A DNA stretch of 50,948 nt from Saprospiraceae bacterium (GTDB lineage: Bacteria; Bacteroidota; Bacteroidia; Chitinophagales; Saprospiraceae). The stretch spans positions 1 to 50,948 of the forward strand of contig JAEUUU010000077.1 in NCBI GenBank assembly GCA_016787345.1, read 5' to 3'. Under the pieces are notes generated by a model. The model was not told the DNA's origin and ran no database searches. It worked only from the letters and a program-made list of their open reading frames with translations. Of this stretch, positions 23,363 through 38,646 are shown piece by piece; the stretch's first letter is position 1; every line of letters starts with the position of its first letter. Made by a program: the position numbers and the translations under genes.

Positions 23363-23476
23363 AACGGAAAATAGATTTGATTGAACGCCTACTCTTTACA
23401 GGATTTTCGGCTTCCTCCTTTTTACAAGGGCAAATCTGAAAGACCGGAATCCCAAAAAATGAGACTGAAATTTTTT

Positions 23477-36299: not shown

Positions 36300-36959
36300 A
36301 TGGAACTGATCGTCACCCAGGACGGCTCTCACTCTGTATTTTCCAGTCGCTTCGGCGTCACTTACCACTCCAAATTCGGGGCGGTAACCGAATCGGCGCA
36401 CGTGTTTATCAATGCCGGCTTGCGTTACAAGGCTGCCGTACAGCACGAGATTGCCCTGCTGGAAGTAGGTTTCGGTTCCGGTTTGAATGCCTTTATGACC
36501 TGGCTGGAAGCCGAACGCCGCAACCTGCGGGTGCGCTACACGGCGCTGGAGGCGTTCCCGCTCGACGAAACCGAAGCCGCGCAGTTCAATTTTGCCGAAC
36601 AACTCGGCGTGCCCGACCGGCAGGAAGATTTTATGGCGCTGCACCGCTGTCCCTGGGGCGAGCCTGTCGTGCTGTCCGAGGCGTTCACCTTTGAAAAGCG
36701 TCTGCAGACGCTGGAAAGTTTTGCCTCGCCTCCGCTTTTCGATCTGGTGTATTTCGATGCCTTCGCGCCCCAGGCCCAGCCCGAACTCTGGACGGAAGAG
36801 ATTTTCACTGCCCTGTATGCCGCTATGCGGCCCGAAGGCGTGCTGGTAACCTATTGCGCCCAGGGCCACTTCAAACGAACCCTGAAAAAAGCAGGATTCG
36901 AAGTGGAGCGCCTGCAAGGTCCGCCCGGCAAACGGGAAATGACCCGGGCGCTGAAATGA
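36300..36959 (+). CDS. mnmD: tRNA 5-methylaminomethyl-2-thiouridine methyltransferase MnmD
   Basis: 219 residues from ATG 36300; an earlier in-frame ATG at 36264 overlaps the terminator region and is unlikely. The SAM motif LLEVGFGSGLNAF (53-65) and the family hallmark DAFAPQAQPELW identify the MnmD/DUF752 methyltransferase. It is equivalent to the N-terminal half of E. coli MnmC without the FAD domain. It methylates the nm5s2U34 wobble base of tRNAs. It is placed between two tRNA genes, which fits its role but may be coincidence. Confidence 0.87.
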   Translation: MELIVTQDGSHSVFSSRFGVTYHSKFGAVTESAHVFINAGLRYKAAVQHEIALLEVGFGSGLNAFMTWLEAERRNLRVRYTALEAFPLDETEAAQFNFAEQLGVPDRQEDFMALHRCPWGEPVVLSEAFTFEKRLQTLESFASPPLFDLVYFDAFAPQAQPELWTEEIFTALYAAMRPEGVLVTYCAQGHFKRTLKKAGFEVERLQGPPGKREMTRALK

Positions 36960-37013
36960 AGGCCGTCTTTTCTTTTTTGTAAATTTATTTAGGAAATACG
37001 GATTGCATTGTTG

Positions 37014-37021
37014 TATCTTTG
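37014..37021 (+). promoter_or_regulatory. TAnnTTTG promoter element of the initiator tRNA
   Basis: TATCTTTG, a perfect TAnnTTTG box, ends 12 nt before the tRNA start at 37034. The -33 region around 36985 is T-rich (TTTATTT) without an exact TTG. Confidence 0.7.
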
Positions 37022-37066
37022 CAGCCGCTAAATCGCGGAGTGGAGCAGTTGGTAGCTCGTCGGGCT

Positions 37067-37717
37067 CAATACTGTAAAATCAAGCGGTTGATGAATACCA
37101 AACAAAAAGGTGACATAGCAGAGCAGACAGTTGTTCTGTATGCCTTGAAACGAGGTTGGGAAGTTCTGAAACCTGTTGGAGACAGACTTCCTTATGATCT
37201 TGTGTTTGACATCCAAGGTGTTTTAGTGAAGGTTCAGGTAAAGCTTGCGTGGTTTGACGTCAAAAGACAAAATTACGTGGTCGATACCAGGCGAACCAAA
37301 ACTAACCGCCGAGTGATGATTCGAGACAACTACACTGCGAATGATTTTGATTTCGCCGTGATTGTCCTTGAAAATCTTGATGTCTTCTATGTCATGCCTT
37401 GCGAAATATTCATCAGCTACGGCAGCGAAATACACTTGGTCGAAGCCGACAAGCGGCAGCGAAAACCGAAATCTTCGGAGTTTCGAAACGCTTGGGACTT
37501 AATTTTACAATGGGCTGTTCCGAAAGAAATTTCGGAATGATTTTCTGTCAAATTCGGGGAAGCCTGTAGTGTGGTAATCCCGAGCCAAGTCCTCAAAAGT
37601 TTGAGGAAAGGTGTAGAGACTTAATGGCAGACATCCTACCTCTTGAAAAAGAGCGGATGAAGAGAAAGTCCAGACCAACAAACCCTTTCAAGGGGCAACG
37701 AAAGTTGTAGTGGTACG
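37067..37717 (+). mobile_element. Group I intron in tRNA-fMet, with an internal endonuclease gene
   Basis: 651 nt. After the endonuclease stop codon the catalytic core can be traced: P4 CGGG (37555-37558) with CCCG (37579-37582); P6 arm CCTCAAA (37591) with TTTGAGG (37600-37606); P7 GACTT (37618-37622) with AAGTC (37666-37670); P8 CATCC/GGATG with inner CTCTT-GAAA-AAGAG (37632-37659); P9 CCCTT/AAGGG (37683-37694); and a GAAA-capped hairpin CAAC/GTTG (37696-37707). The last intron base is G. P1 and the internal guide sequence were not identified confidently. The elements and order are those of group I introns; I have not assigned a subgroup. Confidence 0.88.
37091..37540 (+). CDS. Intron-encoded homing endonuclease, PD-(D/E)XK type, I-Ssp6803I-like
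   Basis: 149 residues from ATG 37091, which lies 24 nt inside the intron. The family signature is present: KQKGDIAEQ at 4-12, LPYDLVFD at 33-40 and VKVQVK at 46-51. As I recall, the catalytic set of I-Ssp6803I, the enzyme of the cyanobacterial tRNA-fMet intron, is Glu11, Asp36, Gln49 and Lys51; all four fall at exactly these positions here. The enzyme would cut intronless tRNA-fMet genes at the anticodon region so that the intron is copied in. Base composition is visibly more AT-rich than flanking genes, consistent with transfer. All catalytic residues are intact, so it is probably active. Confidence 0.88.
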   Translation: MNTKQKGDIAEQTVVLYALKRGWEVLKPVGDRLPYDLVFDIQGVLVKVQVKLAWFDVKRQNYVVDTRRTKTNRRVMIRDNYTANDFDFAVIVLENLDVFYVMPCEIFISYGSEIHLVEADKRQRKPKSSEFRNAWDLILQWAVPKEISE

Positions 37718-37762
37718 CATAACCCGAAGGTCGTAGGTTCAAGTCCTGCCTCCGCCACAAAG

Positions 37763-37794
37763 AAAAAGCCTCGTCGGTCCGACGGGGCTTTTTT
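37763..37794 (+). terminator. Terminator after the initiator tRNA
   Basis: AAAAAGCCTCGTCGG and its near-complement GACGGGGCTTTTTT form a stem around a short loop and end in six T residues, 5 nt after the tRNA. Readable in both directions, so it may also serve the opposite-strand gene ending at 37819. Confidence 0.88.
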
Positions 37795-37818
37795 GTTTTC
37801 AACTGGGGCTTTTCTCCC

Positions 37819-38646
37819 TCACTTATCCCCCCTTTTCCGATAATTATTCACCAGCACCCAATGCGCCACGCCCGGCAGCAGGCGGTTGACCCAGTAGTTG
37901 ATTCTGCCGATGCCCGAAAAGACACGTTGTTTTTCGCGCCGCAGCAACATGCGCCGGATGGCGGGCGTGACGACCTCGATGCGCTGGGGCGTGGGACCGC
38001 CGCTCACAACCGGCCGCGGGATGGGCTGGCCCTGGGCGTCGTACACGGTTTTTTCCTGGTCGGTTTCCGTGAGACCGATGAAGGCTACGCCCACATGGAT
38101 GCCCGTGTCGTGCAACTCGATGCGCAGCGATTCGGCCAGGGAGGCCAGAGAGCGCTTCGATGCGGCGTAGACGGCATTGAGGGGCAGGCCATGAAAGGCG
38201 GCGATACTGCTCATAAACAGCACGGAACCGCGCGTTTGGCGCAAGTGGGGCAGCGCTGCCTGGGTCGTCCAGGTCGCACCCCAGAAATTGATGTCCATGA
38301 TCCGGCGCAGGGCATGCGGGTCCGATTGCTCCACGGTGCCCCACATGTTCATGCCGGCGTTGTTGATCAGGATGTCGATGCGGCCGAAACTGGCCACCGA
38401 TTCTTCTATTAGGCGCTGGCAACTGGCGGGATCGGCTACGTCGCCGGGGATGGCGAGCACCCGGCCGCCGGCTTGGCCGATTTGCTGGGCCGCGCTTTCG
38501 AGGCGCTCGGGGTTGCGGCCGTTGAGCACGATGTGGGCGCCCATTGCGGCCAGTTCGGCAGCTACCCGCAGGCCGATGCCCAGGGTGGAGCCGGTGATGA
38601 CGACGACTTTGTCGTTAAAAAATGCTTTTTCGTGTTCAGGGTACAT
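37819..38646 (-). CDS. Short-chain dehydrogenase/reductase
   Basis: 275 residues. Classical SDR motifs: cofactor-binding TGSTLGIG (18-25), NNAG (95-98), catalytic Ser146/147 in FMSSIA, and Tyr160-xxx-Lys164 (YAASK). Asn42-Gly-Arg44 after the second strand suggests NADP preference. The C-terminal 60 residues, with Arg-rich VTPAIRRMLLRREK, form an extra helical region that may contact membranes. It oxidises or reduces an alcohol/carbonyl; the substrate cannot be inferred. Its first 11 bases overlap the end of the CPBP gene, so the two are translationally coupled. It is the last gene of a three-gene operon. Confidence 0.9.
   Translation of the reverse strand: MYPEHEKAFFNDKVVVITGSTLGIGLRVAAELAAMGAHIVLNGRNPERLESAAQQIGQAGGRVLAIPGDVADPASCQRLIEESVASFGRIDILINNAGMNMWGTVEQSDPHALRRIMDINFWGATWTTQAALPHLRQTRGSVLFMSSIAAFHGLPLNAVYAASKRSLASLAESLRIELHDTGIHVGVAFIGLTETDQEKTVYDAQGQPIPRPVVSGGPTPQRIEVVTPAIRRMLLRREKQRVFSGIGRINYWVNRLLPGVAHWVLVNNYRKRGDK

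Follow-up and report, generated by a model that had tools for sequence, protein, structure and literature searches.

A group I intron carrying a gene of the I-Ssp6803I endonuclease family very probably splits the initiator tRNA gene of a Saprospiraceae bacterium (Bacteroidota), where it would splice and home as a long-standing resident of the family, cycling through gain, decay and loss; splicing and cutting are predictions from the sequence. The element is well formed and of a known type, in a phylum context that is new. It lies in a window of 50,948 nucleotides (the whole stretch of DNA analysed, contig JAEUUU010000077.1). An earlier annotation made from the letters of the window (the sequence-only reading) had assumed a Bacteroidota-type host, in agreement with the nearest named record, a Saprospiraceae MAG that is 95.9% identical over 6.4 kb. 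The main features of the locus are as follows.

37014..37021, + strand: promoter-like -7 box TATCTTTG upstream of the tRNA, read in the sequence
37034..37066, + strand: initiator tRNA 5' exon, ending ...GGGCU (ARAGORN intron mode; empty-site comparison)
37067..37717, + strand: group I intron, 651 nt (RF00028, ARAGORN, aligned introns, empty sites in G754 and G700)
37091..37540, + strand: predicted homing endonuclease ORF, 149 aa, PD-(D/E)XK, I-Ssp6803I family (PF11645, structure 2ost)
37718..37757, + strand: initiator tRNA 3' exon, CCA not encoded (ARAGORN intron mode; empty-site comparison)
37764..37796, + strand: terminator-like hairpin and T run 3' of the tRNA (the terminator scan lists 37776-37789 plus tail)

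ARAGORN in intron mode, run on 36901-37900, reported one tRNA-Met(cat) that spans 37034-37758 and is interrupted at 33/34 by an intron of 651 nt. Run without introns, it found no tRNA at 37034-37758 and gave a tRNA-Gly and a tRNA-Leu alone for the whole window. By our reading, the mature 73-mer is made of 37034-37066 and 37718-37757, with the intron at 37067-37717. Bacterial initiator tRNAs are marked by a CAU anticodon, three G-C pairs in the anticodon stem, a 1-72 mismatch, and a purine at 11 with a pyrimidine at 24. When folded, the spliced 73-mer takes a tRNA shape that leaves position 1 unpaired and has a GGG/CCC anticodon stem, and ARAGORN, the fold and reading by eye together give the CGGGCUCAUAACCCG arm, unpaired C1/C72 and A11-U24. 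A U precedes the 5' splice site and the last intron base is a G; a 5' splice site after CUCA was ruled out, as the intron would then lack its terminal G. Empty orthologous sites were found in two genomes of the same genus, with exon matches ending at the junction: 100% over 57 nt and 97.9% over 48 nt in G754, and 98.2% over 56 nt and 96.4% over 55 nt in G700. Together with the ARAGORN result, these sites bear out the earlier claim that the exons join exactly into an initiator tRNA, with insertion between U33 and C34, a U before the intron and a G at its end.

The Bacteroidota -7 consensus is TAnnTTTG, and the bases at 37014..37021 are identical before the intact initiator tRNA gene of G754; a sigma-70 scan listed nothing at this place. 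Terminator-like sites numbered four in the 1-kb stretch, as against 1.4 in shuffles, a difference that is weak on its own. Elsewhere in the window, a DUF805b RNA (RF02914) was detected on the minus strand at 23386-23420 (48.6 bits, gathering score 35.6).

The Rfam scan that had been proposed as a check of the intron gave an RF00028 match at 37491-37692 with 62.3 bits (gathering score 50, E 1.7e-13). As in group I introns generally, the splice-site U is paired to a guide G, the intron ends in G, and a conserved P3-P8 core with covariation is present, P7 itself being invariant. All 45 introns listed have C as first base, G as last base and GGGC ahead of the core. The pairings are listed below with their covariation.

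37063..37068, + strand: P1 5' strand over the splice site, with 37511-37516 (internal guide, U.G wobble at the site); fold of both strands joined without the ORF
37073..37080, + strand: P1 extension 5' strand, with 37502-37509; fold of both strands joined without the ORF
37518..37537, + strand: P2 hairpin; 8/8 pairs covary
37544..37549, + strand: P3 5' strand, with 37626-37631; 5/6 pairs covary, 99.6% of cells paired
within 37554..37583, + strand: P4 (37554-37558 with 37579-37583); 1/5 pairs covary, the others invariant or with one-sided changes
within 37554..37583, + strand: P5 (37562-37564 with 37573-37575); 1/3 pairs covary, the others invariant or with one-sided changes
37584..37612, + strand: P6 (37584-37586 with 37610-37612) and P6a; 1/3 and 3/3 pairs covary, respectively
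37618..37621, + strand: P7 5' strand (G-binding site region), with 37667-37670; invariant in 39/39
37632..37659, + strand: P8 (37632-37636 with 37655-37659); 3/5 pairs covary
37674..37676, + strand: P9.0 5' strand, with 37712-37714, immediately ahead of the three terminal bases; 3/3 pairs covary, 100% of cells paired
37696..37707, + strand: second P9 hairpin CAAC-GAAA-GTTG; 4/4 pairs covary, 100% of cells paired

The tested structure was written by hand from the window sequence (48 named pairs) and compared across 39 cores from the 45 introns, with L051, L059, L118, L120, L135 and L136 left out. Both-side changes occurred in 33 of the 48 pairs, and 94.4% of cells were paired. Covariation is well beyond chance, as none of 500 shuffles reached the observed value on any of the five measures, and slid structures reached at most 48.0% of cells paired. 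One P9 hairpin was poorly paired in the alignment (51.9% of cells), which we attribute to its variable length. The core pairings P4, P6, P7, P8 and P9 named by the sequence-only reading are thus all present, P7 being invariant and therefore without covariation support of its own, and P1, P2, P3, P5 and P9.0 are present in addition. For the P1 extension, the longest helix averaged 8.4 over 41 introns, whereas exchanging the partners gave 6.9, and 7.5 in the best of 200 exchanges. Both P1 and its extension span the ORF in their pairing, which places the ORF in the loop of P1.

The 149-aa ORF matched PF11645 with E 2.3e-48 and, over nearly its whole length, structure 2ost with E 2.4e-59; 2ost is labelled 'putative endonuclease' and is, we assume, the structure of I-Ssp6803I. 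Across the aligned rows, E11 (37/38), D36 (39/39), Q49 (38/38) and K51 (39/39), presumably the catalytic residues, are kept. The family match and these putative active-site residues point to membership in the PD-(D/E)XK family of I-Ssp6803I, in keeping with the I-Ssp6803I-like endonuclease claimed earlier. Codons 138-149 of the ORF double as the 3' strands of P1 and P2. Compared to the ORF of L051, a locus from a separate MAG with the same intron, dN was 0.0115 and dS 0.076, based on 11 changes only.

A count of initiator tRNA copies, also proposed in the sequence-only reading, found no intact second one in the draft genome (191 contigs, 94.3% complete). The exact CGGGCTCATAACCCG, the intact initiator arm, is absent from this draft; with up to two mismatches it occurs at 10 places, and the pattern reversed as a control at 18. 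Of 31 tRNA matches 30 were typed, and these lack expected tRNAs such as Ile(GAT) and Trp; given this and the draft state, an intact initiator copy could have gone unseen. In a sample of 100 family genomes, the intact arm was found in none of the 13 with a detected initiator-tRNA intron (G000, G006, G010, G014, G015, G020, G046, G051, G055, G058, G071, G079 and G093), as against 73 of the remaining 87 (Fisher p 2.8e-9); the other 14 of these 87, with no detected intron, likewise lack the exact arm. The RF00028 intron search scored only 17-18 candidates per genome, so some introns may have been missed. Within the genus, 30 of 42 genomes have an intact arm. The exact arm was also absent from all nine genomes behind L051-L059, where the pattern misses the variant arms of L055 and L059. 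Intact CAU tRNAs adjoining the split gene in L055 and L057 were considered as initiators and, by eye, are not.

A dead ribozyme or a pseudogene, with another intact initiator tRNA doing the job, could hide in a draft genome searched with an exact pattern that is blind to gaps and to variant arms (as in G046, L055 and L059). This explanation deserves scarcely any credence, as the two exons together give a full initiator tRNA fold, the window core forms the named pairings, and no intact arm was found in the genome with the same intron at L051 or in any of the 13 intron-bearing genomes.

Two further tRNAs of this genome are interrupted. A second group I intron (L001, G000:C4, about 1083-1839; 71.4 bits) lies in a tRNA with a non-initiator CAU anticodon, Ile2-like by eye and mislabelled Gln by ARAGORN; its 151-aa ORF is HNH-like by eye, with no Pfam family above cut-off. 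The third (L003, G000:C73, complement 1407-1757) is a 265-nt intron in tRNA-Leu(UAA), and no intact Leu(UAA) was found among the 30 typed tRNA matches. In the family sample, 23 of 100 genomes had RF00028 matches (L072-L099). Among the 30 intron loci L001, L003 and L072-L099, ARAGORN puts nine in tRNA-Leu(UAA) and labels four of CAU type as Gln; the Leu(UAA) introns L095 and L099 contain ORFs of 159 and 153 aa. At several initiator loci, the ARAGORN labels Leu(caa), Pro and Ser did not fit and gave way to identities read from the exons. The PF11645 relatives L041, L042 and L048, which adjoin a split tRNA-Arg(tct) called by ARAGORN, were rejected as intron-borne: no RF00028 match was found there even at E 0.01, so the tRNA-Arg(tct) call may be spurious. 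The enzymes of L041 and L048 are about 26% identical to the window enzyme, and that of L042 is below the cut-off used.

Tandem scars of the initiator tRNA 3' half were also observed (L175:4405-4711, L176:4660-4744, L038:2245-2323 and L120), in which a short palindrome, TCCGCC...GGCGGA, stands in place of the anticodon stem and a terminator-like hairpin follows. G700 has a GIY-YIG gene (PF01541, E 6.4e-18) between scars, and G543 has a similar ORF and a scar, both seen by eye and the scar passed over by the script. This arrangement may represent another tRNA-targeting element.

The proposed mechanism begins with the intron guide, which would base-pair with the 5' exon over the anticodon loop. 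An external G would attack after U33, and the exons would be joined at C34. The enzyme in the P1 loop would be translated from unspliced RNA and would cut uninterrupted initiator tRNA genes at the anticodon region, whereby the intron would be copied in; going by a 2001 title, Bonocora and Shub reportedly described an enzyme family specific for this tRNA anticodon region. In relatives with a downstream gene, a cut would copy intron and gene together. Over longer times, the element would have resided in the family while passing through gain, decay and loss.

The sequence-only reading had taken this intron and enzyme to be known from cyanobacteria. The element is not limited to these: it is also present in proteobacterial and Patescibacteria MAGs. 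A search of genome contigs gave nine loci, from a Saprospiraceae MAG, a MAG named only Bacteroidetes, Deltaproteobacteria, Snowella, Azambacteria, Phormidium, Uhrbacteria, Muproteobacteria and one more Patescibacteria MAG. The enzyme or its remnants occurred in 27 of 398 family genomes sampled; the count was 2 of 395 for the phylum sample, one being this genome, and 11 of 291 for the cyanobacterial (Snowella phylum) sample, where the relatives have 54-70% identity to the window enzyme. A search for close relatives on mobile elements gave 24 phage records, all below 60% identity and none covering 80% of the query at one place; plasmids gave none, and IMG/VR gave two pattern matches and no relative.

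For the enzyme tree, 39 rows were used and the C-tail was left out. The window enzyme clusters with other enzymes of its own family, whose 22 rows need two changes, and a single family clade is not rejected (AU p 0.63); the phylogeny proposed as a check of transfer thus groups the enzyme at home. In the rest of the tree, cyanobacteria are mixed with Deltaproteobacteria, Patescibacteria and a Bacteroidota genome from a different family, and this mixing of phyla makes an old exchange between phyla, in one direction or the other, likely.

In the core tree, also of 39 rows, the window core is sister to that of the same-genus genome G769 (support 98/97), the nearest core being 87.2% identical; the ORF of G769 is a remnant with its middle lost. 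The family's 25 rows need three changes, and the tree is otherwise weak, including the branch between the bulk of the family rows and the bulk of the cyanobacterial ones (68/91); its family side also holds two Patescibacteria rows, one of Deltaproteobacteria and one of a Bacteroidota from another family. In a further same-genus genome, G777 (L143, G777:C61), the flanks match the window locus and the initiator site holds an intron of a different lineage. Its core joins cyanobacterial introns (96/99; 74.1% to L129) on a long branch (0.92), for which reason its placement is unsure, and the family locus L105 is nearly as close (72.2%). The family without G777 is not rejected as one clade (AU p 0.38). 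With G754 and G700 empty, G769 decayed and G777 holding another intron, presence, decay and absence alternate within one genus.

Cyanobacterial enzymes of 54-70% identity, the joining of the G777 core to cyanobacterial introns on flanks shared with the window locus, and the weak, mixed branch between family and cyanobacteria would all suit a recent jump of intron and enzyme from the cyanobacterial pool into this Bacteroidota genome. Such a jump is very improbable, since the nearest rows of both the window enzyme and the window core are family members, and the long branch of G777 and the closeness of L105 reduce the value of G777 as a witness. The earlier proposal of transfer between phyla is likely to hold for an old exchange; a recent cyanobacterial origin of the window's copy is not supported by the trees.

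The position of the endonuclease gene was tabulated for 46 loci, one per genome as far as we could tell. It is intact inside the intron in 19; in 12 it is intact and lies downstream of an intron that has no ORF and measures 242-340 nt; it is broken inside in 6, broken downstream in 4, and broken beside an uninterrupted initiator tRNA in 2 (G585 and, in the cyanobacterial sample, G819). A gene with a stop after residue 128 (G051) was still classed as intact. Three loci were unresolved: in G559 the contig ends after the 5' exon and ORF, in G551 no exons were found, and in G506 (L139, L178; G506:C37) an intact endonuclease gene lies 9 kb from an interrupted initiator tRNA on the same strand. The pattern that intact genes occur only with an interrupted tRNA has just the two uninterrupted cases as its basis. 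One starred core clade in genus g7 (100/99) contains genomes with no gene (G006), a downstream gene (G774), an inside gene (G734) and a remnant (G768). An endonuclease gene inside, downstream or decayed at the same tRNA, once within a single genus, is new here, and an outside position at the initiator tRNA was not reported among the literature matches listed.

In collaborative homing, a free-standing endonuclease cuts the insertion site of an ORF-less intron. This arrangement, an ORF-less intron with a nearby free-standing gene, is found in 12 of the 46 loci, all of them relatives; the window locus, with its gene inside the intron, is not of this type. The downstream genes might instead be free-standing neighbours of the tRNA by chance, with no intron partners, and some are indeed far off (in G869 by 817 nt beyond the start of exon 2, in G543 by 548 nt, and in G506 by 9 kb). 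We find this hardly credible, as 13 of 16 downstream genes begin no more than 170 nt from where exon 2 starts (searched on the gene's own strand), the genes are closely related to the intron-encoded enzyme, and one lineage has a ribozyme fossil.

This fossil came from a comparison of 17 downstream tails with 18 inside tails, using 300 shuffles of two-base blocks. In most of the downstream genes compared, similarity ends at residue 138-140, the point at which the inside gene runs into ribozyme sequence. The tail of the cyanobacterial L133 after residue 137 matches inside-gene tails, that is, P1/P2/P3/P4 sequence: its best local score of 34 (with L101) was reached in 0 of 300 shuffles, and 37 of 51 ungapped positions are identical to L053 by hand count. 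The ribozyme fossil indicates that the gene left an intron in this cyanobacterial lineage, and by its tail sequence the outside gene of L133 came out of an intron. The related tails of L132, L136, L129 and L138 are singly weaker. The tail of the dead copy in G585 was next best after L133 (2 of 300 shuffles on best score, 58 on mean). Shuffle counts out of 300 on best score and mean were 9 and 8 for L102, 13 and 7 for L132, 15 and 32 for L129, 35 and 3 for L136, 111 and 10 for L138, 15 and 130 for L109, 20 and 203 for L120, and 27 and 51 for L108; the remaining tails had higher counts on both measures, and fossils outside L133 are only suggestive. By eye, no 5' exon relics were seen upstream of downstream genes.

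On the enzyme tree, gene position changes at least eight times without the C-tail and six times with it. The starred branches force only two changes, and downstream genes as one clade give AU p 0.065, so repeated moves are favoured and not forced. We consider it close to an even chance, if slightly below, that collaborative homing operates on the chromosome at the initiator locus of the family, with a single endonuclease gene that both enters and leaves the intron; composite mobile introns would then undergo disassembly as well as assembly. Disassembly might be favoured because a ribosome on the inside gene traverses the guide and the P2 stem, clashing with splicing of an essential tRNA; we infer such a conflict between inside-gene translation and splicing.

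With no second copy found, an essential initiator tRNA would depend here on predicted RNA self-splicing. The phylum is unexpected for the element: a literature search, with subscription papers mostly outside its coverage, found no report of an initiator tRNA intron in Bacteroidota. The tRNAscan-SE 2.0 paper explains a missing fMet or Ile2 gene by group I introns in 36 bacterial genomes, which may include Bacteroidota (PMC8450103). Another paper covers tmRNA group I introns, some of them in Bacteroidia (PMC11915505), so that this intron class is already in print for the phylum. Inside gene, outside gene, gene remnants, no gene, and intron-less tRNA with a dead gene form a natural series, which allows direct testing of the proposed pathway of mobile-intron assembly, the reverse step being evidenced in one lineage. 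Furthermore, the cost of such dependence could well be studied in this host, where introns split three tRNAs.

The closest known system is the tRNA-fMet intron of Synechocystis PCC 6803, of 655 nt with a 150-aa ORF (PMC1995217). The I-Ssp6803I intron and the window element share host gene, similar size, enzyme family and the match to structure 2ost. They differ in host phylum, in that two more tRNAs of the present genome carry group I introns, and in that relatives of the window element show the gene outside the intron. The group I introns of bacterial tRNA-Ile2, tRNA-Leu(UAA) and tRNA-Arg are of the same class and lie in different tRNAs; those in Arg(TCT) and Leu(TAA) are mentioned in PMC4853749. 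A review describes collaborative homing for two phages (PMC3984707). The downstream variant of the relatives, known here from sequence, resembles it in having an ORF-less intron with an endonuclease gene nearby; compared to the phage cases as given there, this variant is chromosomal, sits at a tRNA gene and, in one lineage, shows that the gene moved out of the intron.
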